From contig NZ_CP007034.1 of the NCBI RefSeq assembly GCF_000512915.1, positions 1,116,001 to 1,180,000 on the forward strand: a stretch of 64,000 nucleotides of DNA. Reading direction: 5' to 3'. Numbering within the stretch: the stretch's first letter is position 1; every line of letters begins with the position of its first letter. Positions 16,345 to 42,283 of the stretch are shown in pieces. The position numbers and the translations under genes are program-made. The stretch is from Barnesiella viscericola DSM 18177. Its GTDB lineage: Bacteria > Bacteroidota > Bacteroidia > Bacteroidales > Barnesiellaceae. The notes below the pieces were generated by a model. That model made no database searches. It was not told the origin of the DNA and saw only the letters and a program-made list of their open reading frames with translations.

Positions 16345-18918
16345 ATGAAATCAAGATTTACTTTTAACGGAATAAGACGTGCAACCTCACCGGCTTCGGC
16401 CCAACCCGGCGACTGCTTGTCAATCGTCAATTTGAAACAAAAATCGGGGAGTCTCGTGCCCGCAGGTTCGCCCGAAGTATACTACAAGATGAATGACCCC
16501 GACTGCCGACTACTCTATATACACAACTGTTACGATGGGGAGCACTACATCTCGGCCGACCAGAATCTTCTATACCATGAGGCCTTTGCCGACAAGGAGA
16601 CCCAAGAGTTGACCAAGATATCCGAGAAGATACTTGTACTGGAATCACCGGTTACCTCGATTCAGTCAATAGGCAACACGCTCATTGTTGTCTGCTCGGA
16701 GAAGGTATATTACCTGCTCTATAAGAATAACGCCTATTCAAACCTGGGGGAGAGACCCGAGATTCCCGAAATTTCGTTTTATCCCTACACCAAATACACC
16801 GATGCCTATAACGTGAGCGAATATACCTTTATGAAAGGCTATAACACGCCTACACGCCTCGATACCGAAGACATCAACTATTTCAACACGGCCTACTACA
16901 ACGCCTTTTTCCAGCTGCAAGAAAAGGCCTGGGACCGATATTATTTCGTGCAGCCTATTCTCATACGCTATGCGCTGAAACTGTATGACGGCAGCTACCT
17001 GTATGCCTCGTCGCCCGTCATGCTGGCTCAGCCCGACCCCATACAGCCTTGCAGAATGAGCATTCGGTTGAAAAATTCGAATGAACTCTGTACGGGCTCT
17101 TCCCAAGGACAAATCATCGCCGGCAATTACAGCATCAGCTATTTTGTACATAGTATAAACCTCAATGACTGGTCCGACATCGTGAAGAGCATCGACATCT
17201 ATGCGACTCCCGAAGCTACGATTTTTGAACCCGACCAGAAACAGCAGGGGTTGACCTATAAAATCAACCGCACCGAATCGAACGGAATTGTTTCCTTCGT
17301 CCTTAACGGTGACATTTCATTTCTGGATCAAGAGACTATTCAGAAGCGATACTTGCAGAGCCCGCTCTTCTACAAGATTGCCTCCATCGAAAATTATACC
17401 GAGTTGGAAATCGGACATTCCTACGACATTGACAACAAGATTCGGCCCGATATGCTGGTGCACGAAGAGGTTCTCTCGCCCGACAATACCACCTTGCTCT
17501 CCACCGGGGCTCAGGTGAGCTATGTATACAACAAGCGGCTCCACCTGGCTAACCTGACCCGGAAACTGTTCCCGGGATTTCCATTGAGCCTGTTCAGGGC
17601 CGACCAAAGATATACCGGTGTGGCTACCGCCTACATCGTCACCTATCTCAAAACCGAACGCGGTGAGAGCCGTGTTGTCTGGAGCGGACAACTGAATTTC
17701 TACGGCGTCAACTTCTCCCCACTCCTCTCCTATCCCGACAGCAATGCCTACCAGATGGATATTGTCGTGAAATATGGAACGATGATTTACCGGGGTTCTT
17801 TCCCGCTTACCCCTTCGGAGTATGAGAATCGGGCCGACTATCTCGAACCCTCATTAACTCCCATTGTCTTAAAATCCGACCCCTCGGGAGGCTCCTCGCT
17901 GGTCGTTCCACAGCCCGAGAACGATACCTATCTGCAAAACAACATCTTACGGGTATCGAAGCCAGAGAATCCTTTCAGCTTCCCGGCCGAACTGACCTAT
18001 GCCATCTCCAACAAGGATATTATCGGCATTGCAACCGTCACCTCGGCGCTGTCGGAGGGACAATTCGGCGAATTTCCCCTCTATCTGTTTACCGAAGAGG
18101 GTATCTGGGCCTTACAAAACGGATCGGGTGAGACTTGCTATGGGTTGCAGCACCAACTGAGTCGAGAACCCCTCTCGAAAGATTATCCCATCATACCTCT
18201 CGAAGAGGCTGTCGTGTTTACCTCAAACAAAGGACTTTCCTTTCTTCAAGGCGCCACGGTGCAATCACTCTTGTCTTTCGATGAAATCATTTACGAGGAC
18301 AATAATCTCGTGAAGTTTCAGGACATCAGTGAAACCCTTCTGTTGTCGACTTACGACAGTACACCGCTTAGCCAATATATAAAAAAGAGTATCATGGCTT
18401 ATAATTCGCTCGATAAAGAGTTGATTTTCTGCCAACCCGGGCAGCAATACTCTATCGTCTTGTATCTACCCACCCTCTATATGTACCGCACGACTCAAAC
18501 TTATACCTCTTTCCTCTCCGATGCCAGCCATCTGTTGGGACAAAATCAGTCGGGGGTAGTCTATAATTTGAGGGAAAAGGCAACCTCCTTTAATCAGGAA
18601 GTGTCGATTCTCTCTCGTCCCATCTCGTTTCAAAGTGATACCTTACAGCGATGGCGAGAAATTTCATTACGAGCCTACAATTCCATACAGAATGTTGTAC
18701 TCTCCCTGTGGGGGGGACATGATCCCGAAGATGCATTCACATGCGTGGGGCAAATATCATGTTCCCAGGCATTATCCGGCAGAGTGACCCTGCGGGTCAC
18801 GGGACCAGCCTACAAATATTACAGGATTCTAATGACCGGCATTGTATCGAGCGACTTTCACCTAGATGCCGTCGATGTGATTTTCAACCTCATCGACCAC
18901 CCCTACCGATTGCGATGA
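16345..18918 (+). CDS. Phage tail nozzle/stabilisation-like protein (short-tailed phage type)
   Basis: This is an 857-residue, beta-rich protein with no signal peptide or membrane segment. The segment ALSEGQFGEFPLYLFTEEG (residues ~568-586), followed by GIWALQNGSG, then an AVVFTSNKGLSFL segment, resembles the conserved block of tail-hub/nozzle proteins (P22 gp10 or T7 gp12-like beta-propellers) in podovirus-like phages and prophages of Bacteroidetes. That comparison is from memory of family patterns, not from a search. The start at 16345 is an ATG with the N-terminus KSRFTFNGIRRATSPASAQPG, also nozzle-like. It lies between ppx/gppA and sprA and stops 8 nt before the convergent sprA stop codon. 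The gene is intact and host-like in composition, which argues for domestication. Confidence 0.72.
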   Translation: MKSRFTFNGIRRATSPASAQPGDCLSIVNLKQKSGSLVPAGSPEVYYKMNDPDCRLLYIHNCYDGEHYISADQNLLYHEAFADKETQELTKISEKILVLESPVTSIQSIGNTLIVVCSEKVYYLLYKNNAYSNLGERPEIPEISFYPYTKYTDAYNVSEYTFMKGYNTPTRLDTEDINYFNTAYYNAFFQLQEKAWDRYYFVQPILIRYALKLYDGSYLYASSPVMLAQPDPIQPCRMSIRLKNSNELCTGSSQGQIIAGNYSISYFVHSINLNDWSDIVKSIDIYATPEATIFEPDQKQQGLTYKINRTESNGIVSFVLNGDISFLDQETIQKRYLQSPLFYKIASIENYTELEIGHSYDIDNKIRPDMLVHEEVLSPDNTTLLSTGAQVSYVYNKRLHLANLTRKLFPGFPLSLFRADQRYTGVATAYIVTYLKTERGESRVVWSGQLNFYGVNFSPLLSYPDSNAYQMDIVVKYGTMIYRGSFPLTPSEYENRADYLEPSLTPIVLKSDPSGGSSLVVPQPENDTYLQNNILRVSKPENPFSFPAELTYAISNKDIIGIATVTSALSEGQFGEFPLYLFTEEGIWALQNGSGETCYGLQHQLSREPLSKDYPIIPLEEAVVFTSNKGLSFLQGATVQSLLSFDEIIYEDNNLVKFQDISETLLLSTYDSTPLSQYIKKSIMAYNSLDKELIFCQPGQQYSIVLYLPTLYMYRTTQTYTSFLSDASHLLGQNQSGVVYNLREKATSFNQEVSILSRPISFQSDTLQRWREISLRAYNSIQNVVLSLWGGHDPEDAFTCVGQISCSQALSGRVTLRVTGPAYKYYRILMTGIVSSDFHLDAVDVIFNLIDHPYRLR

Positions 18919-18926
18919 GACCATCA

Positions 18927-21900
18927 TTATTTCACCAGCGACAACCGTATGGAGATACCGTAGTTGCTGTTGGTGATAGGATAGGACGACGAGGATACCA
19001 ACGGCGTGTTTATCTGGTGGTCGAAGTAAGCCCCCACGGTGATGCGCTTGCTCAACACATAGTTAGCCGTGAGCTCAATCATCGTGCTGCGGGTGCCGCT
19101 GGTGGCCTGGGTAAAGTTCTGCTCGATACGGCGGATAAGAGCCTGGTTCTTCCGGAAGGAGAAATCGGCATTGATAGTCAGGTCGTTGCTGACACCCGTT
19201 TGCGAGCCCCGTAGTTTAAGTATCGTATTGAAATTGGCGATCTTGTATCCGGCCCCGATGGTAAAGTCGGTCGTGGTTGCCTCGACTATCTGCCCGGCTG
19301 CCGAGTTGAGCGTGAGGGTGCGCGAATCGTTGTAGCGAATGTTTCCGGTGATGTTGTTCTTCAACGTGACCGAAAGCCCGATAAGGGGGGCAAACTTCTC
19401 GGTAATCATCACCGACGAGATGTCGTAGGGCGACGAGGGTATGGGGTTACCCGACAACTCGTCGCGAATGAATCCGAAATCGCCGTCGGAGCTCACCCAG
19501 TTCAGATAGGACGAGAAGGAGCCCACCGAGTAGGTACACTGGTAGGTATGCGACAGGGTGAATGCCTTGAAATGTTTCTTGATCAACGGTATCTGCATGA
19601 GTCCGTCGTAGGTGATGCGCCAGTTGGGCAGGATTGCCGCCAGCGAGGGGAAGGGCGACAGCCCCACCTTGTTGGCATCGATACCCGAATAGGCTGCCAG
19701 GAAGGCGGGTATCATCACATCGGCCGAGCTGCGGTTTACCCCGCCGTTGGCCGAGTTGTAGGGCGTACCGGCCAAACTGGTCGACGAGATGAAGCCTTTG
19801 TTGGGATAGTTGCCCAACGAGGCATACTGCGCTTCGAGGCGGGCGGCTATGATTTCGCGGTTTTTGAGGAACTCGTTAAAGGCCTTTGAAGCATAACCGT
19901 CTTTCGACGAACTGCTGCGGAAGGCGGTCTTCAAGGCGATGTGCGTCTTGGTGTAGCTACCGCCCCGGGTCGTGGGCATATCGGCATACATGAACTGCAT
20001 CTGCGAGCTGCGCGTGTCGGTGCGGTTACCGGTGAGGTTGATCTTCAACCCGCGTATGGGTTCGAGAGCAACTTCGATATTGAACTCCTCGGTGCGCCCG
20101 ATTACGGCCGGACTGATCTGGGTCGAGTCGCACAACAGCCAGCCGCGCTCCTTGGCCCGATAAACATAGCTCTCATCGGTAAACCCGAAGGCAAAGTCGA
20201 GACCGGGCGACATGGGTCCGTAGGAGGTGGACTGCCCGAAGATGTCGCCGATGTTGGGCGAGAAGAGAGGCAACGAGGTGGTGTTGGTTTTGCGGTAACG
20301 CACACTGGCATTGCGCACCATCATCAACCCGCGCAACGAATACTCGGCAGCCTCTTTCCAGAAGTTGGGCTTCTCCTTGCCGGGCGTAATCACGATGTTG
20401 AGACGCTGGGTACCCCGGTCGAGAATCATCACGCTGTTGGCATCGATGACTTTGGTGCGCACGACTACCCGCTTGCCGGCATCATTACGGGCTACTACCT
20501 TCACCTTCTTGTTGTTGAGGTTGTGCCGCAAGGTCACCGTGGTGTCCTCGCGCAACATGATGGTGCGCTCGAACTTGCGCTCCTTCTTCTTGGTAGTCAT
20601 TGACCGGTTGCTCGACGAGAAACGGCGGTTTATCTTTTGCAGGTATTTTGACTTGTTGTAAAGTTGCTCGAAGTTGAAGCGGCCGTCGAGGCTCATCTGC
20701 CCTTGATTGTTGACGGTGTTGCCCAACTCGATGTCGCTCGAAATCTGAGCACCGCGATCCCACGTATAGGTGGCGTTGTACTTGGCCGTAAACGTGAGGT
20801 AGTCGAGCGCGGGTATCTTACTGAACGGAGCGGTGTACGAAGCGTTGAAGGTCTGGTTGTAATTCCAGGGGGTACCCAGATTCTTGATGCTGGACATCAC
20901 GGTATCCTTCCACGCCCGATACTCGTCGGGGAAGAGCTCTTTATTGACAGCCCCCACGGGCTCCTCGATATGGGCATTGGTCATCGTTTGGAGCGAGAAG
21001 TTCAACGACTTGGTGAGGTTCCACGAGAGCGAGAACTGACGGTCCCACAGGAAACTCTTGCTCACACTCACGGGCAGCGCCATACCACCCGACCCGCTCA
21101 CGTCGCGTATCTGCTGCTCGTAGTAGTAACGCGACATGTTGGTATTGAAGGCGATGTTGCTGGGCAGATAGTTGAACTCCCACTCTTTCAAGAATTTGAG
21201 ATGCTTCGACTTGCTCTTTATCCCCTTGAAGGGAATGAAGGGTTTGACAAAGGGAGTATAGGAGTAGGTGAAGCTGCCCCGATAGTCGTAGGTGTTTTCA
21301 TATTCGGTCGTGGGGTCCTGGTTGGACTGCCGGTTGTAGGAGTAGCTCAGCGAGAAGTTGGCCGGGTCGTAGGGCATGGGATTCTTGCTGCGTACATCGA
21401 ACATCACCCCCGAGAGACTGAGGCTCTCGACGGTAGACCGCTCAACCGAGGACTGGTTTATCGAGTCGCGCTCGGCTTTGCTGCCCGCATTCTCCAAGGC
21501 ATCTTTGAGCAGAATATCCTGGTCGAGCGGGTTGTACTTGGGCGAGGTGCGCTGCTCGGTGAGCGAGTAGAACAACGGGGCTTTGAGTTTGATCTTCTCG
21601 GGCAGGAAACGACCCAATTCGACCATCGTGGCGATATTGTACTGGTAGTAGTCGTCGAGCCGGCGCTCGGTCAGACTCTGGTCGATACCACCGAAACCCA
21701 CGGTCTCGACATGGCCGGCCACATTGAGCGTGGCAATGTCGGAGAGGCCCAGATTCAGATTGGCCTTGGCGGCCCAACCACCCGACTGGTCAAAGTCGGT
21801 GAGCCGCATCTCGTTCACCCAAATCGTGATGGACTTGGTGGCATTGGAGTTGTTGCGCACCCCAATCATCATCGTGCGTACATCGCTCAACGAGGGATTA

Positions 21901-24900
21901 CCCACAATGGTTACCTTGTTCTGGGTCTTCTCGGGGTCATAGATGGAGTAGCGGGTCTGATAGGTCACACCCGAATTGTCCTGCCGCTTCTTGGCATTGC
22001 GCTCCAACTTCAAGTCGGTGAAGACCGACAGCGGGAAATCGAACATGTTGGACGAAGGCCACACAGCCTCCTGGTCCTGTGTATTGTAGGTGTTGTAATT
22101 GCCCGGCTCGGTCAGCGAAAGGGGTATCTCGTACTCATAGTAATTGGATTTGCTGTCGGAGCCCAACCGCAGGAATACCGACACGTCGCCATCGCGCAGG
22201 TTGGTGACATCGTCGATGAGCTTCTCGGCATGGACAAACATCTGCAACCGCTTGTAGGTGCGCATGTCCATACCGCTGTTTTTATAGACGGCACGTCCCT
22301 CACCGGTGGGTAGGTCGGTCACCTTCAACGACATGGCCTGCTCATTGAGCTGGGTAATCTGCGATTGTCCCGGGTCGATGATACGGGTTACTCCCGGCGG
22401 CAATACATAGTTCACAGGTTCCTGACCGGCATTCTCCTCGATATTGACTACCGAGACGTCTAGATTGCCCTGCGCCGGTGTATTGGTGGACTTATCTACC
22501 GCATAGTCGTAGGTGCGCCACTCACCCCGCACCAGTTCGAGGGTGGCAAATCGCAGATGGGTCTCGACCTCGAAGCCGGTCATGAACATGCGGATAAAGC
22601 GGATTGTCTTGAAATCCTGAATCGAACCAACCTTTTTTTGCGGTTGTGCCAGAGGCACCTTGAACTGGTACCACACGGCACGCCCCTCCTGCCCGTTGCG
22701 CAGGGGGACGGTGGTCTCGCGCTTGTCGGTGATGTAGTTCTTGCCCACTACCAGACTGTCGGGGCAGAGCGATATGCGGTATTGGTAATAGCGTTCATAC
22801 TCGTTGAGGGTGTTGTCCTGGTTGATGTCCTCAACATCGGGTACACTCTTGGCCGACTGGTAGTAGGAGTCGTCGACCTCCTCGGTCGAACGCGAGTTGC
22901 CCTCGGTGCCGTTGTAGTGTTTGTACCGGTCGAGAATCGAGGTCTCAGCATCGTCATAGTCGTGCCCGCGATAGAAATGATAGTTGTCGCTCGCCGGGTC
23001 GTTGAAGGGCGAGAACTGGTCTTGCCGCATGGCCTCGACCACGGCCGGCGACAGTTTCGTCTCCAACTTGGCCAGGAAATCCTTGTACGACGAGAATCCA
23101 TACTCCTCGTCGTTGGTCAATCCGTCAAGGCCCACATCTTGCAGTCCCCGCGCACCACTGGTGTTGTCGAAGGCATAGGTGAGCGACTGCCGCTTGGAGA
23201 CCTTGCCCCACGCCGTAGTAGCTATCTGTGTCGTATCGCCGTCGATGGGCAGACCGTTCTCGAACGATTTCATACCGTCTTTGAGAATATCTTCCGACAC
23301 CTCGCCCAGGTTGAAGTAGAGGTCACCTCCCTTGTGGTTGGTCTGGTTTTCGTCGAGGAAGGGGTCCATGAGCCAGAACTGGATATACTCGATGTTGGAC
23401 GACTCGAAGTCGGTGTAGTCCATCTTGCGCATGATACCACCCCACCGTTTCTCGGGATTGAGCAACCGCCCCTCCTCGTCGATATTGTCGGCATCGAGGT
23501 TATAGGGGCCACGCTCCTGCGGATAGAACGAAAGATTGAGCGTCTGCTGCGTGGTCGACTCACCGTAGTTAATCTCCTTGTTGGGGAAGATTTCGCGCAC
23601 GCTCACCTCGCGCACATAGGGGTTGGAAAGTTGGTCCAGATCGTTTTTCAGGTGGGCGGGTATGAGGTTGGAGTTCTTCTGCGTGAACATGCGGTCGATG
23701 TAGTACCACGACATCAGAGCCCGGTTCTGCCCATAGCGCACGTCGTTGGAGTAGCGGGCCTCGGGGAAGAGGGCGTCGGAAGAGGGGTCGTAGGGTGTGG
23801 AAGCCAGCGTCCACGAGTAGGGCGATTTGAGGTCGAGGCCCGTTTGGGTCGACTCAAAGTCGTCGATATAGGAGGTTCCCTGCGAACTGCCGGTCTTGGA
23901 CTGGTGCGGCACCAGTTGGGCAAACTCGGCCGTCAGGGCCAGCGTCGAGGGGGCCGTGGCGTTGACGGTGGGAATCTTGTTGAGCCAGTTGGTGAGCCAC
24001 AAGAAACTGGTGTTGTACGACAGGTTCACCCCCCACAGGGTGTTGTTGAGCACCTCGTCGCCCATGCTCACCTTCTCGGTAAGCGGTTTTTCAGAGAGGT
24101 GCATGATGGTGGCTCCTATATTGAAATCCTTGGTGAAGGCGTAGTTGAGGTCGAGACCCAACATGGTCTTGCGCTGCATGTTGAACATCGACTGGTTCTC
24201 GAGCGACACGCTGATGGGGGTTCCCGACTCGATAATGCTCTGGTTCAAGATGGTGACGACACCCATGGCGTAGTCGACAATGTAGTCGGAGTTCTCGACC
24301 AGTGTCATACCGCCGGCCGTGACCACCACCGAACCGCGGGGCACGTTCATGGCGTTCAGGCTGATTTCGGCGCCCGACGAGGCCTTGTACTCACCGGTCA
24401 TGATAAACTTGTTCTTCTCGGAGACCTGCTGGGCGATGGTGAGTGTCGAATCGTAAAGCTCCTGGTAGACATATTTCTCGGCGATGGCGGCATTGCCTAT
24501 CTGATCGGCCAGGTGACTGCCGAAGGGCTCGATGACGGGGAAGATGATGCGGCCGTTCGACGACTGAATGGTGTACCCCTCGATGTAGTCGAAAATACCG
24601 TCGGAATACTCGGTCTGGTTGGCGTCCAGTCGGTCGAGGTTCATCACCTGCAAGAGGGTCTTGTTGGCGATATTCCCCTCGGGAATGTTGTTGACGGCCA
24701 CGCCGGTGGAGTCGCTCTGATACTTGATGTAGAGGCGGAACTTGTCTTGCTGCACCTGATAGGCCCCGAGCGAATAGACGTTTTTCATCATCAGGTCCCA
24801 GATGGGGAGCGAAGTGGTTACGGTCGAGCCCTTCAACATTTTCAGAAAGAGGCACTGGTCGGTATCGGTCACATCGCCCGAGAACTCGCCCACCTGATAG

Positions 24901-29576: not shown

Positions 29577-30893
29577 ATGGCACAGAAAAGAAAATACAAC
29601 ATGCGCTGGAGCGACATCTACTCGTTGGGGTTGTTGCCGGCTATCCTCATGTGGGGGCTATCCCCTTTCCTCGATGAAAAGGCAATTTTAATTGCCTCCA
29701 TTATCTTGGGGGGCGGGTGGATTGTTTTTTCATATTTCTACATCTACCTATTCAAGCGGTGTGGCATCATCGGGTGGATTACCGGCTGGGCCATGCTGCT
29801 GAGTGGGCTGATACGGAGCATTTTATATCAAACAGGCATGATGCAGAGCCCTCTCATTCTTTTCGAGGCTCCCTGCATAGCCCTACTCTCCTATCTGTTT
29901 GAAAAACACGATATCAGACCCCATTCCTGCTACGAGTACAAGATGCGACGAGGCATCATGCAAGAGCAATATATCCTGGGCGATTTCAGCCAATACGAGG
30001 CCCATTATATCGTGCGGCTCGTCTTAACGGGAGCCCTGCTCTCCGCAGGATTGTCGTGGGGACTATTCCTCTACGGCATCGACATAGAGAGCCGGGCCGG
30101 GACCTACTTCTACTTCTATTTCCCGGCGGGACTGGGTTTAGCCATTATCCTATTCGAGTCTATTCGCCGCCTGCTCATTCAGCATCTCATCGAAAAGTAT
30201 GAGAAGAAAAGTAAATACCACAGCACTCAATCAGACAAAGAGCTGGATTTCATGGAGTTTTTCTTCACCGAGATTCGCATTATGGTCATCGGCGACGAGA
30301 AAATCTTTCTTACCGAAAACAATGGGGACAGGAATAAATTCAACTACTACGCCGGGTTAGACCTGCCCATACACCATCGCACCACCTATTGTACCACCTT
30401 GGGAGAGGAATCTCAAAAAGCCCGGCAAATCGTAAGGGACGAATTGGGAATCGAGAATCCCGACCTGCGGCATGTCTGCACCACGATAGCCCAAAAGCCC
30501 TGGCAACAAATCGGGCACTATATCCTGTTCCTGCCTCACGACAGTCTGTCAAAACTCAACCGTTACCCGGGACGCTGGTACACGGTCAACGAAATTGCCC
30601 ATCTGTTCCACAGCGACAAGCTACACCCCCTCTTCAAAGAACTTTATGCCCGCCTCTACACCATTGTCGATACGGCCCGGACCTACCACAGCAACGGGAA
30701 AAGGCGATATGCGATACGGGGCTACAAACCGGCTTTTTCGCTGCATCGTATCGATCAAATGAATATTGTCTTTGACGACCCGATATGGCTTTACGTGAGC
30801 CGCCACAACGAAGACCATCTGCTCTATCGGATAGACACCTGGATACGAAAACTCTTCTCCCAAAAAGATTCTTCAAACAACCGTGATGCTTGA
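29577..30893 (+). CDS. Membrane protein with C-terminal degenerate NUDIX-like domain
   Basis: This is a 438-residue protein. The N-terminal ~195 residues hold about six hydrophobic segments (for example LGLLPAILMWGLSPFL, WIVFSYFYIYLFK and LGLAIILFESI). A short charged linker leads to a soluble C-terminal domain (~210-400) with a NUDIX-like arrangement: a strand-rich start (IRIMVIGDEKIFLTEN), then GEESQKARQIVRDELGI. The last motif keeps the D-E-x-G-hydrophobic end of a NUDIX box but lacks its R-E pair, so metal-dependent hydrolysis may be lost. The assignment is tentative. The stop codon overlaps the start of miaA, indicating coupling. It could be a sensor of a nucleotide-type ligand, but no function is demonstrated. 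Confidence 0.6.
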   Translation: MAQKRKYNMRWSDIYSLGLLPAILMWGLSPFLDEKAILIASIILGGGWIVFSYFYIYLFKRCGIIGWITGWAMLLSGLIRSILYQTGMMQSPLILFEAPCIALLSYLFEKHDIRPHSCYEYKMRRGIMQEQYILGDFSQYEAHYIVRLVLTGALLSAGLSWGLFLYGIDIESRAGTYFYFYFPAGLGLAIILFESIRRLLIQHLIEKYEKKSKYHSTQSDKELDFMEFFFTEIRIMVIGDEKIFLTENNGDRNKFNYYAGLDLPIHHRTTYCTTLGEESQKARQIVRDELGIENPDLRHVCTTIAQKPWQQIGHYILFLPHDSLSKLNRYPGRWYTVNEIAHLFHSDKLHPLFKELYARLYTIVDTARTYHSNGKRRYAIRGYKPAFSLHRIDQMNIVFDDPIWLYVSRHNEDHLLYRIDTWIRKLFSQKDSSNNRDA

Positions 30894-32640: not shown

Positions 32641-32791
32641 GGCATTAAAAAATCGAATTCCTACTATAAACAGATTTATTTTTTTACTTTCTTTTACACA
32701 AGCCACCCTGTCCCATCGATTGTATAAAGCTGCCATAAAAAAGCAGCCGCCCCCTCCTTTCTTTGCACCAAACTTAAAAACCAGAGAGACT

Positions 32792-34687
32792 ATGGCAAAT
32801 GATTCGTACAAGGCCCGGTCAACGGGACCGAAAGGCTTGTCTAAAAAGGGGAAGGAAATCGAGCGGTCGCACTACCCCGTACTTTTACAGGCTCAAAAGG
32901 CGTGGGAGGAGATTGACCCCTTCCGCCACAAGCGGAAACGGAACCGCAACTACACCTATGGCAAACAGTGGAACGACCTGATAAAACTACCCGACGGCCG
33001 GGTCATGAGCGAGGAGGAGTATATTCGGCAACAGGGAAAGGTGCCATTGAAAAACAACCTCATCAGGCAAATGGTCAAGTCCGTACTGGGACAATTCCGC
33101 AACAACCAGACCCAACCCGTGTGCGTGGCCCGCGACCGCGAGGAGCAGAACTTGGGCGAACTGATGAGCGCCGCCGTGCAGTATGCCTACCAGCACAACC
33201 GTCTGCAAGAGCTCGACAGCCGCACGATGGAGGAGTTTCTCATCTCGGGCATCTGCTTCCAGAAGATAGGCTACGGATTCCGCCGGGGCAAGAGCGACGT
33301 ATGGGTCGACGAGGTAAATCCCAACCGCATCTTCTTCAATGCCATGGAGGATAGCCGGCACTGGGATTGCACCCTCATCGGCGAGCTGCACGACATGCCC
33401 ATTGCCGAGGTCATATCGCGATTCTCGTTCGGTTCTCGCGAGCGTGCCGTACAGTTGCGTCAAATCTATACCGAGGCCGACAACGATACCGTGCGCCACA
33501 ACTTCGAGAACCTCACCACCCGGGCCATCGACCGACTCGACTTCTACATGCCCTCTTCACCCGACCTGTGCCGGGTCATCGAGGTGTGGAAACTCGAAAG
33601 TCAGGAGATACTGAACTGCCACGATTTCCGGTCGGGCGAATACTACAACCTGCCGGTATCGGAGGCCGAAGCAGTGGAGAAGGAGAATAAGGCCCGACGA
33701 CAAGCGGCCCGGCAAGCGGGCATACCCGACGAGGCCGTCGCCCTCATCGAAACCGAATGGGGCGTCACACAAACCTGGCGCTATCGATTCTTCTCGCCGC
33801 TGGGCGACCTGCTGGACGAGGGCGATACCCCCTATTGGCACGGCGAACACCCCTATGTGTTCAAACTCTACCCGCTCATCGACGGCGAGGTTCACGCCTT
33901 TGTCGAGGACGTCATCGACCAGCAGCGATACATCAACCGGCTCATCACCATGATCGACTTTATCATGGGGTCGAGTGCCAAAGGGGTGCTGCTCTTCCCC
34001 GAGGACCAGATTCCCGACGGCATGACCATCGACGATATTGCCGACGAGTGGACCAAGTACAACGGCATCATTCTGTTCCGTCCCCGACCCGGGTCGCCCA
34101 TGCCCCAGCAGATTGCCGTCAACGCCACCCAGGTGGGAGCCTACGAAATGCTCTCCCTGCAAATGCGACTGTTCGAGGACATCTCGGGGGTACACGGGGC
34201 CATGCAGGGGAAGGCTGCTCCGGCGGGGACTCCCTCCTCGCTCTACTCGCAGCAGATACAATACTCGTCGACCAACCTGCTCGACCTCTTCGAGTCGTTC
34301 AAGACCTTCCGCGAGGACCGCGACATCAAGATCATGAAGACAATCCAGCAGTTCTATACCGACTCGCGCTACCGCACCATCGCCGGGAACAGCTGCGGCA
34401 AAGATGCCTCGACCTACACGCCCGAAGAGGTGCGCAACACCGAGTTCGACCTCTCCATTGCCGAGACGCTGTCGACACCGGCCCTGCGTATGGCCTCGAA
34501 CGAATTTCTCATGGAGCTGTTCCGCGGCGGGAAGATTTCGCTCGAAATGTTGCTGCAAAACGGGGCCTTCCCCTTTGCCGACAAATTGCTGCAATCGCTC
34601 AAACAGAGCCAGACGGAACAAATGCAGGCACAGGCACAGGCGGCTCAACCTCAAAGCAGGCCGGCGACAAACGCCCCGCAAGGATAA
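32792..34687 (+). CDS. P22-type phage portal-like protein
   Basis: This is a 631-residue soluble protein matching the portal of short-tailed phages (P22 gp1 type, also used by crAss-like phages). The N-terminal ~60 residues are basic. The core has PLKNNLIRQMVKSVLGQFRN, the wing/stem segments with YINRLITMIDFIMGSSAKG, then a long helix ending FEDISGVHGAMQGKAAPAGT. This last is the glycine-rich turn before the crown found in P22-like portals. A Gln/Ala-rich tail (QAQAQAAQPQ) ends the protein. A portal forms the 12-mer through which DNA enters and leaves a capsid. The ATG at 32792 is chosen because the upstream frame is unlike the family. No phage gene adjoins it: its neighbours are an outer-membrane barrel and a ferritin-like gene, and it has its own terminator. 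Confidence 0.83.
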   Translation: MANDSYKARSTGPKGLSKKGKEIERSHYPVLLQAQKAWEEIDPFRHKRKRNRNYTYGKQWNDLIKLPDGRVMSEEEYIRQQGKVPLKNNLIRQMVKSVLGQFRNNQTQPVCVARDREEQNLGELMSAAVQYAYQHNRLQELDSRTMEEFLISGICFQKIGYGFRRGKSDVWVDEVNPNRIFFNAMEDSRHWDCTLIGELHDMPIAEVISRFSFGSRERAVQLRQIYTEADNDTVRHNFENLTTRAIDRLDFYMPSSPDLCRVIEVWKLESQEILNCHDFRSGEYYNLPVSEAEAVEKENKARRQAARQAGIPDEAVALIETEWGVTQTWRYRFFSPLGDLLDEGDTPYWHGEHPYVFKLYPLIDGEVHAFVEDVIDQQRYINRLITMIDFIMGSSAKGVLLFPEDQIPDGMTIDDIADEWTKYNGIILFRPRPGSPMPQQIAVNATQVGAYEMLSLQMRLFEDISGVHGAMQGKAAPAGTPSSLYSQQIQYSSTNLLDLFESFKTFREDRDIKIMKTIQQFYTDSRYRTIAGNSCGKDASTYTPEEVRNTEFDLSIAETLSTPALRMASNEFLMELFRGGKISLEMLLQNGAFPFADKLLQSLKQSQTEQMQAQAQAAQPQSRPATNAPQG

Positions 34688-34726
34688 CAGCCCGGAAACG
34701 AACCGGCTAAATAACACAATAACACA

Positions 34727-34767
34727 GCGGCAGAGCCCCGATACCCGGGGCCCTGCCGCCTTTTTTT
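34727..34767 (+). terminator. Rho-independent terminator of the portal-like gene
   Basis: The long stem GCGGCAGAGCCCCG pairs with CGGGGCCCTGCCGC (one mismatch) around the loop ATACC and is followed by seven T residues. It lies 40 nt beyond the portal stop codon, so the portal gene is a monocistronic unit. Confidence 0.9.
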
Positions 34768-35300: not shown

Positions 35301-35406
35301 AGTTCTCTTTTTTAGAATTAAAACTGCCCCTATAACAACCGGCTGCTCCCGTTGGTTCATACCCGAATGCACCATATTGCACGAACCCGGCCGACATCTT
35401 AACCTG

Positions 35407-35444
35407 CAAAAAAACAAAAGCCGCCTCGCATCAGCGAAGCGGCC
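35407..35444 (-). terminator. Rho-independent terminator of hppA
   Basis: On the minus strand the stem GCCGCTTCGC pairs with GCGAGGCGGC around the loop TGAT and is followed by TTTTGTTTTTTT. It lies about 32 nt past the hppA stop codon. Confidence 0.88.
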
Positions 35445-35475
35445 TTATTCTTATGCTTTACCTTATATCGATCGG

Positions 35476-37680
35476 TTACAGCAGGCTCCAAGCCACGGTC
35501 AATCCGGCCATAACGATGGCAACCATGCTCATCAGCTTAATCAGGATATTCAGGCTCGGGCCCGACGTATCCTTGAAGGGGTCGCCCACGGTATCGCCCA
35601 CAACGGTGGCCTTGTGCACCTCGCTGTGCTTGCCGCCGAAGTTACCCTCCTCGACATATTTCTTGGCGTTGTCCCAAGCACCGCCGGCATTGGCCATGAA
35701 GATAGCCAGCACGAATCCGGCGCTCAGTCCGCCGATAAGCAGACCAACCACACCCGACACACCGAATATCAGGCCTGTCACGATGGGAGCAACGATGGCC
35801 AGCAGCGACGGAACGACCATTTCGCGCTGGGCTCCCTGGGTCGAGATAGCCACGCAACGTTCGTAGTCGGGCTCAGCCTCGCCGGTGAGGATACCTTTGA
35901 TTTCGCGGAACTGGCGACGCACCTCCTCGACCATGTGAGCGGCGGCACGTCCCACGGCATTCATCGTCAAACCGCAGAAGAGGAAGGCCATCATCGAGCC
36001 GATGAACATACCCGAGAGTACCTTGGGATTCATAAGCGTAATATCGTAGTAGCGCATGAAATCGGTAAACGAAGCCTCACTGATCATCACGGTAGTACCG
36101 TCGGCAAATTCGAGTACCGTCTCGCCGATACGAGTCAGACCGATACGAATCTCTTCCATATACGAGGCCAGCAGGGCCAGACCGGTAAGAGCGGCCGAAC
36201 CGATAGCAAAACCTTTACCCGTAGCAGCTGTCGTGTTACCCAGCGAATCGAGGGCATCGGTTCTCTTGCGCACCTCCTCGCCCAAGCCGCTCATCTCGGC
36301 ATTACCACCGGCATTGTCGGCAATAGGTCCGTAGGCATCGGTGGCCAGCGTGATGCCCAGGGTCGAGAGCATACCCACGGCAGCGATACCGATACCGTAG
36401 AGCCCGAGAGTGACGTTGCCCAAATCGAATCCCGATGCGAACAGGTAGGAGAGAATGATACCGGCTACTACCGCAATCACGGGGACTGCCGTCGAAATCA
36501 TACCCAGACCGATACCCGAGATGATAACCGTAGCCGGACCCGTCTTACCACTCTCCGACAGCCGTTGGGTGGGACGATAGGATTGCGAGGTATAATACTC
36601 GGTACTGCGACCGATAATGATACCGACCAACAGACCTACCACCACCGAGCCGCCTATGAGGGCCCAATTCTGAATCTGCAAGGCCCACAGAATCACGAAG
36701 GTGGCTATGACAATCAGTACCGAACTGAGGTTGGTACCGAACGAAAGCGATTTCAACAGGTCTTTCATCTTGGCATCTTCGCGCGTACGCACCGAGAAGA
36801 TACCGATAATCGAGAGCAGAATACCCACGGCGGCAATCAACATGGGGGCAATCACCGCCTTCATCTGCATCTCGGTCTCGCCGATACCCATAAAGGCTGC
36901 GGCACCCAGCGCCGAAGTAGCCAGAATCGAACCGCAATACGACTCGTACAAGTCGGCACCCATACCGGCCACATCGCCCACGTTGTCGCCCACGTTATCG
37001 GCAATCGTTGCCGGGTTGCGGGGATCGTCCTCGGGAATACCGGCCTCAACCTTACCCACGAGGTCGGCACCCACGTCGGCAGCCTTGGTGTAGATACCAC
37101 CGCCCACACGGGCAAAGAGCGCCTGCGTCGAAGCACCCATGCCGAAGGTAAGCATCGTGGTCGTAATCACACAGAGTTTATGGGCCGGATTCAGCGCCTC
37201 GTCCGGAATCACGGCATTGAGCAGCAGATACCAGAACGAGATGTCGAGCAGACCCAGACCTACCACCACGAGTCCCATCACCGCACCGCTCCGGAAGGCG
37301 ATGCGCAAACCGCTATTCAACGAGGTGCGGGCGGCATTGGCCGTACGGGCCGACGCATAGGTGGCCGTCTTCATACCCAGATAGCCCGACAGACCCGAGA
37401 AGAAACCTCCCGTAAGGAACGCAATGGGGACCCACTTGTTTTGAACCCCGAAACCAAACGCCATAATCGAGAACAAAGCCACGAGAACCAGAAAAACGAT
37501 TCCCACAATCTTGTACTGTTGACGCAGATAAGACATCGCCCCCTTGCGCACATGGAGTGCGATTTTCTTCATCTGAGGGGTTCCCTCATCGGTTTTCATC
37601 ATCTGCTTATAAAAATACCAAGCAAAGAGAAGTGCCAGTACCGAGGAGATCGGCACAAGCCAGAATAATGCATTTGTCAT
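35476..37680 (-). CDS. hppA: Membrane-bound ion-pumping pyrophosphatase
   Basis: This is a 734-residue integral membrane enzyme that couples PPi hydrolysis to H+ and/or Na+ export across the inner membrane. It has about 16 hydrophobic segments. The PPi/Mg-binding motifs are clear: [20 protein letters not shown] followed by [15 protein letters not shown], and [16 protein letters not shown]. The segment [16 protein letters not shown] carries Ala where K+-independent enzymes carry Lys, so this should be the K+-dependent class. Some Bacteroidetes members are reported to pump both Na+ and H+; ion choice here is not settled. It is monocistronic, with its own terminator. Confidence 0.96.
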
Positions 37681-37911
37681 AGCAAAAAATTCAAATTAAG
37701 TTAACATTCAAAGATGAGGTTAAAGGTAAGGCGGATTGTATAAACAGCCAAATCTTTTTTTCTAATTTTTATTTTTTTTATCGGTTCAAACATTCTGCCG
37801 AAAGCGCAAGCGGCATGCACCTCTGAGGCAAATATTTTCGGGATATTTCTTGGATATTACGATTTTAAAAAATATATTTGTTGAGGTTTCCTTTTTATCC
37901 TTGCCTCATAT
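37681..37911 (+). promoter_or_regulatory. AT-rich divergent promoter region of hppA and the WG-repeat gene
   Basis: This gap contains no gene. TTTG at 37877-37880 and TATCCTTG at 37896-37903 form an imperfect plus-strand promoter with a short 15-bp spacer, only 8 nt from the ATG at 37912, so the leader would be nearly absent. On the minus strand CATCTTTG is a 7/8 -7 match for hppA near 37710-37717. Confidence 0.35.
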
Positions 37912-38652
37912 ATGGAAAATTGTTCTAAGTTCAACTCATTGGGAGGGTTCCCCGATTTGGAATCTTTCAAAGACGAATCGGGAAAATATGGCTACCGCGA
38001 GAAACTCTCGGGAAAGGTATTCATAGCTCCCCAGTTCGATGCCGCCCACCCGTTTCGCGAGGGGGTAGCGGTGGTGATGATCGACCACAAGTACGGCTTC
38101 ATCGACCGGCATGGGCTGGCCGTGGTCAAGCTCGACTATGACTGGGCCAACTCATTTCACAACGGACTGGCAATGGTAGAACGGAACGGACGTTATGGCT
38201 ACATCAATCAGGAAGGCAAGGAGATTGTACCCATCATCTACGAACACATCGCCGAATTTCATGAAGGCCTCGCACCGGTAAAGCTGCACGAAAAGTGGGG
38301 ATTTATCACCCGCTCGGGCAATGCGGTAATCCAACCGCGGTATGACGACACGTGGGGATTCCGCGAATCGCTGGCGGCCGTGCGGGTAGACGAGAAATGG
38401 GGTTTTATCGACAAAACCGGGCACCTGCTTATCCCCCTGATATACGACTATGCCTGGAACTTTAAAGAAGATCTCGCCGCTGTCAAACAAGACGGGAAGT
38501 GGGGTTTTATCGACAAAGCGGGACAAGTGGCCCTGCCCTTCCTGTACGACGAAGCCGACTCGTTCGACAAAGGCCTGGCCGATGTTAAACTCGATACCCT
38601 GTGGGGCGTCATCGACAAAACCGGCACATGGCAGAAAAACGAAGAGATCTGA
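37912..38652 (+). CDS. WG-repeat protein
   Basis: This is a 246-residue protein made almost wholly of about seven WG repeats of ~32 residues, with recurring W/Y-G-F-I-D-K-T-G units (YGFIDRHG, YGYINQEG, WGFITRSG, WGFIDKTG, WGFIDKAG, WGVIDKTG). No signal peptide or membrane segment is present, so the protein is probably cytosolic. WG repeats are beta-rich and likely bind proteins or ligands, but no activity is established. It forms a single-gene unit closed by the terminator at 38690-38733. Its position just upstream of the phage-like operon seems coincidental, since that terminator separates them. Confidence 0.92.
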   Translation: MENCSKFNSLGGFPDLESFKDESGKYGYREKLSGKVFIAPQFDAAHPFREGVAVVMIDHKYGFIDRHGLAVVKLDYDWANSFHNGLAMVERNGRYGYINQEGKEIVPIIYEHIAEFHEGLAPVKLHEKWGFITRSGNAVIQPRYDDTWGFRESLAAVRVDEKWGFIDKTGHLLIPLIYDYAWNFKEDLAAVKQDGKWGFIDKAGQVALPFLYDEADSFDKGLADVKLDTLWGVIDKTGTWQKNEEI

Positions 38653-38689
38653 CCAAGAGACACACTTCTACCATTCTTAAATAAGCCAA

Positions 38690-38733
38690 GGACCTATCAC
38701 CTTCCTCCTCCTTCATTTCGATAGGTCCTTTTT
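38690..38733 (+). terminator. Terminator after the WG-repeat gene
   Basis: A 9-bp stem, GGACCTATC and GATAGGTCC, encloses a ~21-nt loop and is followed by TTTTT. It separates the WG-repeat gene from the phage-like operon that starts at 38913. Confidence 0.75.
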
Positions 38734-38867
38734 CTATATCCCGTCCCGATGGGTAAAACCGGGCCCGAGAACCGCCCGTTCTCCCTGACCCCCTCGCCTG
38801 CATGCACACCGGCTGCATCCCCCCCTACATTTTTCAATCCTGCCACAATAATCGGCCCTGGCCGACA

Positions 38868-38886
38868 GATATTTGCGACAAATATC
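38868..38886. promoter_or_regulatory. Perfect inverted repeat upstream of the phage-like operon
   Basis: GATATTTGCGACAAATATC is a perfect 8-bp inverted repeat around a 3-nt centre, 26 nt before the ATG at 38913. Each arm also resembles a -7 box (xATATTTG), so the site could be an operator overlapping a promoter. I did not find a matching dyad upstream of the portal-like or nozzle-like genes. A regulatory role is inference. Confidence 0.45.
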
Positions 38887-38912
38887 AGCAACCTCTAAAA
38901 ACGCAGGATTAT

Positions 38913-39422
38913 ATGCTAAATCTACTTTCAACCGCAATCCCTTTGCTGGGGAGCTACCTATCTTCTCAAAAGCAGAAGCAACAGGCACAAGAAGCCTGGC
39001 AGGAACAGCAACAGCAATATGAACAGGAGTTATCGCAGCTCGACAGCCTCTTCAACCGCACCTATTACAGCAACATGCTCGACCGATCCGATGTGAGAAG
39101 TCTGCTCGGCAATCTGCGCGACCAAATGACCGAAACGACCCAAAACCTCAAAAACCAGGCCAGCATCACCGGAGCCACCCCCGAGGCGGTCACCGCTGCA
39201 CAGAAAGCACAGAATCAGGCTTATGGTCGAGCGGTAAGCCAGGTGGCCGGCTATGCAACCACCTGGAAAGAGAATGCCCTGCAAAACTACCTCACGGCCC
39301 GCAAGGCGCTCGAAGCCTATTACCAGCCCGTCAAGTCGAACTACATGAGCAATATCCTCGGGAAGTCGGGCTTCAATGCGAGCGGCTCGCCCCTCACCCT
39401 CTTGAAAAATATGTTCAACTAA
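38913..39422 (+). CDS. Phage internal virion/ejection-like small protein
   Basis: This is a 169-residue protein with a short hydrophobic N-terminus (LNLLSTAIPLLGSYL), then a Gln-rich coiled coil (QKQKQQAQEAWQEQQQQYEQ). The core FNRTYYSNMLDRSDVRSLLG followed by ATPEAVTAAQKAQNQAYGRA resembles small internal virion or DNA-ejection proteins of podovirus-like prophages in Bacteroidetes (N/FxxxYYxDxLxR, then GATPEAxxAAxxxx). This is pattern memory, not a search. The start at 38913 is supported by AGGA 8 nt upstream; a longer upstream frame (to 38802) is not family-like. It is the first gene of a three-gene operon (17- and 18-nt spacers) with two further candidate virion genes. Confidence 0.68.
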   Translation: MLNLLSTAIPLLGSYLSSQKQKQQAQEAWQEQQQQYEQELSQLDSLFNRTYYSNMLDRSDVRSLLGNLRDQMTETTQNLKNQASITGATPEAVTAAQKAQNQAYGRAVSQVAGYATTWKENALQNYLTARKALEAYYQPVKSNYMSNILGKSGFNASGSPLTLLKNMFN

Positions 39423-39439
39423 AAAACAATCACTTTACA

Positions 39440-39940
39440 ATGGCACATCACACCGCAGCAACCGGGGATTCGTCCCCCACCTCGTCGCAGCAACTGACAG
39501 ACTATCTGAACGAGGGATACAGCTTCTTGAAAGCCTGTCAACTATATCGCAACAAACTCAGAAGGGACCGGGGAGAGGATTCCGATACGGTTCAGGCACA
39601 CCAGCACATCGAAGCCTTGAAAGAGCTGCTGCACCTGTTGCAGCAACCCGACGACGGCATCGATGCCAGCCTCGTCGAAGTGTGGCTCCCCAAATCCTAC
39701 ACCGAGAAGGAGCGACGGTATCGCAACTACCTCCTGTGGCATGCCTTCTCCACCGAGCGCGACCGTCGGGAACATGCCTGCCCGGCTCTCAGCGAGAGAG
39801 CTCTGTTGAGAGCCCTCCACGCCGGGCGCAATGAGTTTGAATGCAAACATCATCTGTTCAACCTCTTGGTATCGGCAGGATTTCCCAAAAAGCAGGCATG
39901 CCTGCTGGCCAAATACTTAGGTAATCGAATTTCAAACTAA
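39440..39940 (+). CDS. Unknown protein in the phage-like operon
   Basis: This is a 166-residue soluble, helical, Arg/Leu-rich protein. I recognise no named domain. It has a predicted helix with basic face (ACQLYRNKLRRDRGED), a middle segment LKELLHLLQQPDDG and a C-terminal helical region with Cys and Lys (AGFPKKQACLLAKYLGNR). It sits between the two ejection-like proteins, with 17-nt and 18-nt spacers, so it is almost certainly co-expressed with them. By position it may be another internal or adaptor protein of the same particle; this is inference only. Confidence 0.7.
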   Translation: MAHHTAATGDSSPTSSQQLTDYLNEGYSFLKACQLYRNKLRRDRGEDSDTVQAHQHIEALKELLHLLQQPDDGIDASLVEVWLPKSYTEKERRYRNYLLWHAFSTERDRREHACPALSERALLRALHAGRNEFECKHHLFNLLVSAGFPKKQACLLAKYLGNRISN

Positions 39941-39958
39941 TCTCTATCCATCGACATC

Positions 39959-42283
39959 ATGAACAATTTGAAAACATACGCCTCAAACGGAGGGAACGGT
40001 ATATATGGCTGGGACCTCGTCAACCCCTACCTGCAAGAGCTATACCGGCAACAAGAGAACGACGATGACGCACCGGAGACTCCGCCCTACATCGCCCCCC
40101 TGCCGGGTGAGAAAACACCGCCAATGCCTTTCGAAGGAACACCCGAAAGGGAGACTCCTATCCCGCTGAAACCCGATTATCCGGTCAATCCCGGACCGGA
40201 ACAGCCGGCCGAAGATCCCCGCAAGCTGCATTCCTTGACCGAGGGGTTGAACCTGGCCGGCAAACGAATCTGGAACGACTTGAAATATGCCCGGGGATAC
40301 ATACAGGACAAATTCTCCGACGACGAGATGGACGAAGCGGCTCAAAGCGCACTGGAAAATCTGCCCTCGTATGAAAGCAGTTCCGAGACTCAGCTGCAAC
40401 AAAAGGCCGACTCTCTCGAAAACGAGATCGAACGCCAACCGGGCCAGCAACCGCGTATTGAATTGAAAGGGCTCGAAGAATACCGCCGTCTGAGAGACGA
40501 GGATATTCCCCGCAACGAGATTGCCCGGCAACTCGCCGAGACGGCCCGTTGGGGCAACGACGGCCGACGCATCATGGAAGAGGCCCGGGCTACCGACAAA
40601 GCCTTCCCCGAAACCGAGGGGTGGGCCTCCGTAGGCGAGTTTGCCGCCGATATTGCCCGCATGGGAATACCCGTTGCCATAGGAGCCATGTCGGCCCCGG
40701 CCGGTATAGCGGCCGGAGGCCTCAGCGTGGGGTCGGCCGCCACCGAGAGTTTCTCACAAGCCCAGATGGAGCTCGACAATTTTGAAGAGGAAACCGGGCA
40801 AAAGTTGTCCACCGGCCAGCGGGCGGCCTATACCGCCCTGAGCGTGGGCGCCGACTTCCTTTTCGATGCCCTATTACAGAGCCGGTTCTTCAAAAACCTG
40901 GGAGCCGGAGCCAAGGCCCGGGCCTCGAACTACTTCAAAAAAACGATTCTCAACAACAAATCGACCCGAGCCGAAATGGACAAACTGATGAAGAATCTGA
41001 AAAAGACCGACCGCAAAGGGGTCTTGACCGGTGCCTTCAACGACGCGGCGGTAAGCGGAGCCGCCGGGGGTCTCAGCTCGGCAACCCACGACATAGCCCA
41101 GGCCATATATGTCAACCCCGACGAGTATCCTACCCTCAGTTCGGTCCTGCTCAACGCCTCGGTCGACATGGTCACCGGCGGAATCGCCGGCGGATTGGCC
41201 GGCGGCATAAGCCGATCGGCCAATCTGAGGAAGAAGAATATCCGGCGAAAGAATCAGGACAAGATAGCAGTCATCAACTTCGATGGAGAAATCTTGGAGG
41301 TAATCGACTACGACCCCAGGAACCAGACCGCTACCGTGATACTGCCTTTCCAGAGGGAACCCATCGAGATCCCCGACATCGAGCCCGACATGATTCATTC
41401 GGTGTCGGTAAACGATTACAATCAGAATCGGCAACTGACCAAAGAGTTGAACGAGCCCGACCTGTTTGCTCCGGTTGTTCCCGACGCCGACAAGGACCAG
41501 GCGTGGGCTCAAATGTCATCGCGAGGAAAATACCTCATGGCCAAAGACCTGGCCGAACGAATGGGTATCGACAATGTGCTGATTTACGAACGCGAGTCGG
41601 ACCTCCCGCCCAGACTCCTGGCTCAAAAAAAGGGCGAGGGAACAATCCGGGGATTCCAAACGTCATACGGCCCGATAGGTATCGTACTCGAAAACGAGCC
41701 CTCCTACGAAAGCCTGCAACACACCTTGCTGCACGAAGCCGTAGGCCACCGGGGATTCGATGCACTCTTCCGGATACCCGAGCTCAAAAACGAGTTCTTC
41801 CTGAATGTCTACAAATCCATGCCGAAAGAGTTCAAGACTCCGAGGGCATCATGGTTTGAACAGCAACTCGAAGCCCAGGAGTATTTGGCCTACATGGCCG
41901 GACAGGGAGTACGCTCCTCGGCCTGGGACATGATTGCAGGAGAACTGCGAGGCATGCTCCGAATGTTCTACCCGGGGTTGCGCTTCTCCAATGCCGAACT
42001 GCGCCAACTCATCGTGCGCTCGCGCAACGCATTGAAGCGCGACGACTCTTTACTCGAAATGAGACAGAAACTGATGAACCGGGAAAGTCTGTCGCCTGAG
42101 AGATCCGGTACCCCCATGACCGAAGCCGAAGAAGAGACCTACCGCCTTTTGTGGGAAAACGACCCGCAATGGCGTCGATACAAACGGTTCTACGACGAGG
42201 TGTACGGCCCCGACGAGGGTTCCCTCCCCCCCGACTCGCCTACCCCTCCCGCGAACGGTTCCGGCAACGACAACCCTGAATAG
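39959..42283 (+). CDS. Large phage ejection-like protein with HEAVGH metallopeptidase-like motif
   Basis: This is a 774-residue multi-region protein. Residues ~30-130 are Pro/Glu-rich and probably disordered, and ~130-230 are charged helix. Three Gly/Ala-rich hydrophobic stretches follow, near 236-262, 362-375 and 400-412, of the kind found in large internal (ejection) proteins of short-tailed phages. A C-terminal domain (~500-700) contains LLHEAVGHRGFDALF, with HEAVGH at residues 592-597. Similar HE..GH.G segments occur in large polyvalent and internal proteins of Bacteroidetes phages and mobile elements and look like a zinc-metallopeptidase motif, though only the two His and the Glu are visible as ligand candidates. 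It is last in the operon and is closed by the strong terminator at 42287-42324. Confidence 0.68.
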   Translation: MNNLKTYASNGGNGIYGWDLVNPYLQELYRQQENDDDAPETPPYIAPLPGEKTPPMPFEGTPERETPIPLKPDYPVNPGPEQPAEDPRKLHSLTEGLNLAGKRIWNDLKYARGYIQDKFSDDEMDEAAQSALENLPSYESSSETQLQQKADSLENEIERQPGQQPRIELKGLEEYRRLRDEDIPRNEIARQLAETARWGNDGRRIMEEARATDKAFPETEGWASVGEFAADIARMGIPVAIGAMSAPAGIAAGGLSVGSAATESFSQAQMELDNFEEETGQKLSTGQRAAYTALSVGADFLFDALLQSRFFKNLGAGAKARASNYFKKTILNNKSTRAEMDKLMKNLKKTDRKGVLTGAFNDAAVSGAAGGLSSATHDIAQAIYVNPDEYPTLSSVLLNASVDMVTGGIAGGLAGGISRSANLRKKNIRRKNQDKIAVINFDGEILEVIDYDPRNQTATVILPFQREPIEIPDIEPDMIHSVSVNDYNQNRQLTKELNEPDLFAPVVPDADKDQAWAQMSSRGKYLMAKDLAERMGIDNVLIYERESDLPPRLLAQKKGEGTIRGFQTSYGPIGIVLENEPSYESLQHTLLHEAVGHRGFDALFRIPELKNEFFLNVYKSMPKEFKTPRASWFEQQLEAQEYLAYMAGQGVRSSAWDMIAGELRGMLRMFYPGLRFSNAELRQLIVRSRNALKRDDSLLEMRQKLMNRESLSPERSGTPMTEAEEETYRLLWENDPQWRRYKRFYDEVYGPDEGSLPPDSPTPPANGSGNDNPE

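Follow-up and report, generated by a model that had tools for sequence, protein, structure and literature searches.

Introduction

Gene transfer agents (GTAs) are defined by six features in the sections of PMC9662315 on which we draw: their proteins derive from caudoviricetes, their genes are endogenised and often lie at several loci, they are inherited mostly vertically and co-diversify with their hosts, the DNA packaged is mostly random host DNA, their own genes are too large for one particle, and there is delivery to cells. According to the portions of PMC12946183 used here, gene exchange in gut Bacteroidales is said to be among the highest in rate, and host-DNA packaging in this order is prophage-driven lateral transduction. 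Here we analyse a stretch of 64,000 nucleotides from Barnesiella viscericola DSM 18177 (assembly GCF_000512915.1, contig NZ_CP007034.1, positions 1,116,001 to 1,180,000), called the window below, in which phage-related genes stand at three loci among cellular-looking genes. Together with two further loci on the same chromosome, they probably encode one domesticated particle derived from a short-tailed phage, dispersed, mostly vertically inherited and co-expressed, for which a putative GTA is the most likely description.

The closest catalogued phages are the Bacteroides phages BS-TP4 (PQ571277), BKO1-TP3 (PQ571269) and BF1-TP2 (PQ571263), whose portals are 43-48% identical to that of Barnesiella; their terminases (42-43%), capsids (41-42%) and counterparts of an 857-residue (857-aa) protein (22-26%) also match this genome, and BS-TP4 additionally has homologous scaffold, g12 and adaptor proteins. 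Unlike the Barnesiella loci, the 64 kb genome of BS-TP4 is annotated as encoding an integrase, a repressor, replication functions and an endolysin, and the internal protein gp3 of this phage has 5391 aa where the Barnesiella protein ej3 has 774. We note that gp7 of BS-TP4 (PQ571277.1:20340-22436), like its counterparts in PQ571263 and PQ571269, is annotated as 'tail spike protein' but is a large terminase by profile and motifs. Handles beginning with G, C, L and f below denote genomes, contigs, loci and families.

Results

Phage-related genes in the window

A sequence-only reading of this DNA had picked out five intact open reading frames (ORFs) at three loci, and all five are open and present, on the forward strand. 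The second locus holds a gene for a 631-aa protein (32792..34687, counted from the ATG at 32792; the longest ORF begins at TTG 32720). This protein matches PF16510 (E 9.3e-43; 147 bits, where the cut-off is 26.1) and phrog_156 (E 1.7e-75) as well as the solved portals 8jov (E 4e-12) and 9vyf (E 1e-5), and on these sequence matches it is certainly a P22-type portal, as had been proposed.

The first locus is the 857-aa gene (16345..18918), which encodes a virion-cluster protein of phrog_32516 (E 3.7e-46), a profile whose function is not assigned. It aligns over nearly its full length with gp26 of BS-TP4 (23% identity, E 1e-44), and gp26 in turn weakly matches an internal-virion-protein profile (E 4e-4). 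Its predicted structure, confident at a predicted local distance difference test score (pLDDT) of 82, is mostly strand; this model is compatible with a nozzle, and the putative role of tail nozzle is a guess.

The third locus is a three-gene module, ej1 (38913..39422), ej2 (39440..39940) and ej3 (39959..42283), whose order is kept in the genus. The product of ej1 (169 aa counted from the ATG at 38913, the longest ORF beginning at 38802) is a virion-associated protein with homologues beside phage virion genes at L032 (E 5e-9) and L318 (same contig as L134). For the 166-aa product of ej2, no convincing family match appeared among the Pfam and phrog profiles searched, and a gp9-type protein was rejected as a candidate (hhalign probability 2.9). 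The 774-aa product of ej3, a putative internal or ejected protein, has a segment that recurs in BS-TP4 gp3 (E 1e-11) and in very large proteins, of up to ~3280 aa, encoded upstream of phage portals, and HEAVGH is conserved among the five ej3 sequences aligned. We would guess that the module encodes putative internal or ejection proteins. Taken with the 857-aa protein and a fibre-like protein described below, it suggests functions in attachment and delivery.

Two of the loci had been said to end in their own terminators, and strong terminator-like hairpins do follow the portal gene (34726..34760; 16 pairs, 12 G-C) and the three-gene module (42286..42325; 17 pairs, 10 G-C). They have the most pairs of the 22 terminator-like sites found in a hairpin scan, against 13.7 (standard deviation 4.2) in shuffles. 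The claim that base composition is host-like holds only roughly, as the G+C content of the genes ranges from 0.486 (857-aa gene) through 0.583 (portal) to 0.632 (the terminase elsewhere in the genome), against 0.525 for the window.

A terminase and a capsid operon elsewhere in the chromosome

The sequence-only reading had seen no terminase or capsid gene between the three loci, which agrees with the ORFs that we inspected; both sit elsewhere in the genome. Alignments of three terminases (BS-TP4, G036 and G027) and of three capsids (BS-TP4, G027 and G033) each gave a single match in the closed 3.08 Mb genome, the terminase at C1:1427270 and the capsid at C1:1395192, where the portal is at C1:1148792. 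The terminase and the capsid operon are ~245-280 kb away from the portal, and all five loci span ~297 kb of the chromosome.

The terminase gene stands alone. Its product was detected only by the three-homologue alignment: Pfam PF03237 had no match in this genome, no PDB entry matched the protein, and its NCBIfam match is weak. It does match phrog_2 (E 2.5e-18), and its ATPase and nuclease motifs (KARQWGGST and HDD) are preserved, as they are in the other clade sequences displayed; this combination of profile match and motifs is that of a terminase large subunit. An adenine-methyltransferase-like gene with a partner (L226:4956-7110) lies divergent to the terminase in five of the eight other genus stretches; its NCBIfam matches are far under the cut-off, and it is perhaps part of a restriction system.

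The capsid operon comprises five genes in the order scaffold-capsid-g12-fibre-adaptor. Four of the products resemble consecutive proteins of BS-TP4, the scaffold gp10 (E 1e-32), the capsid gp11 (E 3e-100), the g12-like protein gp12 (E 7e-4) and the adaptor gp13 (E 6e-17), and the fibre-like protein had no match among the BS-TP4 proteins. The capsid belongs to SU10_MCP (PF17236, E 1.6e-50, 172.7 bits against a cut-off of 24.1) and matches the solved capsid 9in6 (E 5e-10). In most capsid homologues from the clade and from phages (L225:10186-11619), the N-terminus is hydrophobic and resembles a membrane or signal segment, which is odd for a capsid; the five capsid proteins compared from family f26 do not have it.

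A genome search for further virion genes, proposed in the sequence-only reading, has in this way supplied terminase, capsid and adaptor, and the scaffold as well. The predicted products would form a near-complete virion set of portal, terminase, SU10-type capsid, scaffold, adaptor, fibre-like protein, nozzle-like protein and internal-protein module. The presence of a portal, a motif-bearing terminase, a scaffold, a capsid and an adaptor implies DNA packaging.

A bipartite motif shared by the five loci

The motif TGCCAYAA-N23-TTTRC lies upstream of all five loci. In the window, exact matches on the forward strand precede the 857-aa gene (16291..16326), the portal gene (32731..32766) and the three-gene module (38841..38876), and in the whole genome the exact motif occurs just five times, once ahead of each locus. 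The motif was derived from these five loci, which makes the remaining eight genomes the real test. The nine Barnesiella genomes offer 45 upstream regions; 41 were readable and all 41 carry the motif, 31 exactly, 9 with one mismatch and 1 with two, although these regions are orthologous and thus not fully independent. The distance from motif to gene is fairly constant for each gene across the nine genomes. Elsewhere in the 693 kb examined, no exact match occurs, and phage and prophage loci totalling 2.19 Mb contain two.

One-mismatch sites are background, because at up to one mismatch a backwards control pattern has 21 sites in the genome and the motif 17. Twelve sites have one mismatch, of which 11 are inside mechanical ORFs of at least 70 aa and one is without a downstream ORF, and no further member of a regulon was found in this genome with the motif at up to one mismatch. 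The right half of the motif resembles the -7 element known from Bacteroides.

In other families, motif searches on 7-19 upstream regions each gave scores well over those of four shuffles, scores that are inflated by shared descent. The spacing is kept there and the left box differs, for example ATAACA in f89 (7/7). The result was weaker in f22, and no clear site was found at the f29 terminase, the f61 857-aa genes or several f69 genes. Three of the f26 capsid genes displayed have in common a different upstream stretch, about GTGTGGGACTAA. The shared motif supports the view that the five loci would be regulated jointly, as one regulon.

Lone loci, neighbours and distribution

An intact prophage has contiguous structural, replication and integration genes; what we find at these loci is structural and packaging genes among cellular-looking ORFs. 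Integrase and replication genes were not seen at the loci, a statement that covers the loci and not a genome-wide search. In a scan of named genomes we kept the top 80 portal loci out of 150 and called close those with 55.5% identity or more, a cut-off that we chose once the list had been seen. This gave 23 close loci, 18 of them with at least 7 kb downstream, and 57 more distant loci, 40 of them long enough. A terminase or capsid gene lies nearby in 2 of the 18 close loci, and both in none, as opposed to one or both in 37 of the 40 distant loci and in 44 of the 45 viral loci that were long enough among the best 80 of 292. Two genomes, G142 and G238, each hold a lone close set plus a second, distant phage-like set; that of G142 is contiguous on C32 (L318:6592-17985), is of the same broad phage type and makes a natural comparator.

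Most host genes around the loci were labelled by eye, by us or in the sequence-only reading, and with no search, as sprA, ruvA, DPP-IV, miaA, hppA, fabI, RelA/SpoT, infB, suf, rplU, rpmA and lysS; fumarate hydratase alone was checked by search. Conserved synteny had been proposed as a check, and the neighbours are indeed stable: the terminase has the same two genes beside it in 8/8 other genus stretches. For the capsid operon the neighbour is fumarate hydratase, again in 8/8 and also in 8/14 stretches of other families (a count that omits one short stretch, L376). At several loci of other families, the portal and 857-aa genes form a divergent pair between sufS-like and rplU-rpmA-like genes. 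Two neighbours in the window may be mentioned here. A WG-repeat protein (PF14903; 37912-38652) is encoded directly upstream of the three-gene module and adjoins it in most genus stretches, and a 438-aa membrane-like protein (29577-30893) is fast-evolving for its place, with a ratio of nonsynonymous to synonymous substitution rates (dN/dS) of 0.19-0.31 in the three pairs measured.

The portal is present in all nine genomes examined from Barnesiella's family, and so are terminase and capsid. The three co-occur in the same 13 of 60 relatives, namely the nine genomes of the genus, G029, G036 and the more distant G027 and G033; in G027 the phage-gene homologues are clustered within ~32 kb. In the genus stretches read, scaffold, g12, fibre and adaptor genes are present in 9/9 genomes; eight genomes have the three-gene module and seven have the 857-aa gene, with the remaining module and 857-aa copies falling outside those stretches.

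In an order-wide sample, 36 of 393 genomes have a portal match. Twenty-one of the 36 belong to five further families, with portal identities of 56-68% (for G272, over a piece of 128 residues only), and all 21 have terminase and capsid as well. These genomes were picked for having the portal, so the figure is one of co-occurrence, not prevalence, the genomes listed from the five families being those with a portal. Other loci with 56-67% portal identity include metagenome-assembled genomes called Coprobacter and Caccoplasma. A more distant version occurs in family f26, where a capsid match is found in 181/198 genomes and 29/30 genera, nine of the 181 matches being weak (E 1e-9 to 1e-20), and where capsid, adaptor and portal are consecutive in all six loci examined. 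The f26 loci have a second, more reduced arrangement, capsid-adaptor-portal (portal ~460-475 aa) plus 857-aa-like gene-terminase, with examples among cellular-looking genes at L319:8267-11507, L034:8626-11879 and L244:7409-12695.

Selection and inheritance

Purifying selection with dN/dS well under 1, which the sequence-only reading had put forward as a check, is borne out in four species pairs by values of 0.045-0.079 for portal, 0.030-0.083 for terminase and 0.029-0.077 for capsid, which are near or slightly above those of housekeeping genes. Over all eleven genes the range is 0.029-0.422, with ej1 highest, and several synonymous distances (dS) above 1 mean that saturation limits these values. 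Control rows too short or unalignable (ferritin, ppx, cytk and some outer-membrane-protein pairs) were left out. The capsid and terminase frames are open in 30/30 genomes, two stop flags among the capsid matches having both been resolved.

Between the sister species G000 and G008, portal, terminase, capsid, scaffold and g12 have dS values of 0.25-0.51, against 1.0-2.2 in the 857-aa gene, fibre, adaptor and ej3. The raised values suggest that these four genes may undergo either allele exchange or very fast change. The fast-diverging sites include 16345-18918 and 39959-42283 in the window and L225:7935-9659.

The trees covered 25 genomes from six families together with an outgroup, and rpoB served as the host reference. 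Terminase and capsid have 15/23 and 14/23 splits in common with rpoB, where label shuffles gave at most 2 and 3, and the common splits are mostly within families. Patristic distances of terminase and capsid correlate with each other at a Spearman coefficient of 0.78. In the terminase tree, made by a quick method, the six families fall on one side of a branch with a Shimodaira-Hasegawa-like approximate likelihood ratio test value of 78, which rises to 98 when the long row G333 is dropped. The terminase tree supports a single origin and the capsid tree does so weakly, and by these trees a single origin of the six-family set is likely, not proven.

Discussion

We propose that these loci encode one domesticated particle that acts as a GTA. 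A cell in which the regulator of the motif is active would make all of the parts and assemble proheads, and the terminase would fill these with chromosomal DNA, because the phage genome is no longer linked to these genes. The particles would be released by lysis, and docking on related cells and delivery of the DNA would fall to the nozzle-like protein and the fibre. The sequence-only reading had itself suggested a domesticated particle or GTA, and our analysis supports it: each outcome that it had named as speaking against the idea, apart from a failed structure match, was tested and none occurred. The portal is not confined to a single strain, close homologues are lone rather than parts of contiguous prophages, and the frames are open rather than decayed. 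Its expectation of host-congruent trees was largely borne out within families, and the order of the families differs.

Several points weigh against the GTA proposal. The particle is a prediction from genes, and lysis is its weak point. No PF08291 (M15 endolysin) protein was found in the nine Barnesiella genomes, and no lysis cassette was seen in the Barnesiella operons read, while some other families have one: in f89 the holin PF05105 and endolysin PF08291 lie downstream of the capsid genes, and f29 has DUF5675 and neighbours. Neither a small terminase nor a regulator was recognised. In G003 and G005 the 857-aa gene is not covered and in G008 it is cut; in G004 the three-gene module is not covered. 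No PDB entry matched the 857-aa protein by sequence, and the predicted structure of ej3 (pLDDT 45) is too poor to use. The terminase and rpoB trees arrange the families in different orders, the correlation of patristic distances with those of rpoB is only moderate (Spearman 0.44 and 0.53), and the six-family grouping in the capsid tree is weak (69/41), with a long-branched prophage group beside it.

A domesticated, DNA-packaging particle might also serve another use, such as self-sacrificing killing, release of DNA for nutrition or biofilms, or delivery of a protein, for example the 774-aa one. The genes, their conservation and the joint motif fit any beneficial particle, and the divergence of the 857-aa gene, fibre, adaptor and ej3 far beyond the shell genes between G000 and G008 is what receptor or effector parts would show. 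The intact terminase, portal and scaffold are strongly constrained, however, and a DNA-free killing particle does not need them. We consider another use unlikely.

The loci could instead be remnants of an old prophage that is scattering and decaying, given that the structural genes resemble a real phage group and that no integrase or replication genes were seen beside them. We reject this account as very improbable, since it is contradicted by purifying selection, by the open capsid and terminase frames and by the shared motif. We give no more credence to a split-genome phage or satellite that occupies several sites and still mobilises itself. The second phage-like sets of G142 and G238 do indicate that such phages enter these hosts, but the host-gene neighbours of the loci are kept across families and the trees largely track rpoB. 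Moreover, an IMG/VR scan with two clade-capsid peptides matched 99 stretches, none of which encodes a relative, and the best viral terminase among the matches listed has 50% identity (the best viral portal has 55%); on neighbours, trees and viral scans we set this account aside. Least credible is the separate co-option of single phage genes for unrelated cell functions, which would suit loci that are far apart and in some cases hold one gene but which we set aside on the co-occurrence of portal, terminase and capsid in the same 13 of 60 genomes and on the one motif at five loci.

Returning to the GTA proposal, we can extend it beyond Barnesiella, in a form to which we give even chances. This would be an ancient GTA lineage of short-tailed-phage origin, acquired once before several Bacteroidales families split (Barnesiella's, five others and probably f26, a large family of at least 30 genera). 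Its operons, though scattered, would be run as a single regulon by way of a two-part promoter element, the left half of which has shifted in concert at many loci within a family, and it would be the main unrecognised route of DNA exchange in much of gut Bacteroidales. If the proposal is true, it adds a new route of gene flow, a co-regulated particle passed on vertically in Barnesiella and in several other families, and it offers an independent origin of GTAs from another phage type and a case that can be tested directly. The fixed motif that unites these scattered genes for virion proteins also points to a general strategy for spotting dispersed agents that prophage finders miss.

Comparison with known systems

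We found no GTA described in Bacteroidales or Bacteroidota, including Barnesiella and Muribaculaceae, in a literature search that took in few subscription papers, no preprints and parts of the papers cited, and within that literature the particle looks like an undescribed putative GTA of short-tailed-phage origin. The GTA-like packaging reported in the relevant portions of PMC12946183 also concerns gut commensals, Ruminococcaceae and Oscillospiraceae, but these are Bacillota. As for the features by which GTAs are defined, the Barnesiella proteins are caudoviricete-derived, as judged by their portal, capsid and terminase families and their phage homologues; the genes are endogenised at five loci, in lone contexts; and inheritance is mostly vertical with host co-diversification, mostly within families, the deeper order differing. 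RcGTA and other GTAs, as presented in the sections of PMC9662315 used here, likewise have caudoviricete-derived structural genes at several loci (five for RcGTA) and co-diversify vertically with their hosts. Set against RcGTA as those sections describe it, the Barnesiella set comes from another phylum and another ancestor, with a P22-type portal, an SU10-type capsid and a nozzle-like protein, with no tail-tube or tape-measure gene recognised, and with its modules arranged as separate operons behind one common motif.

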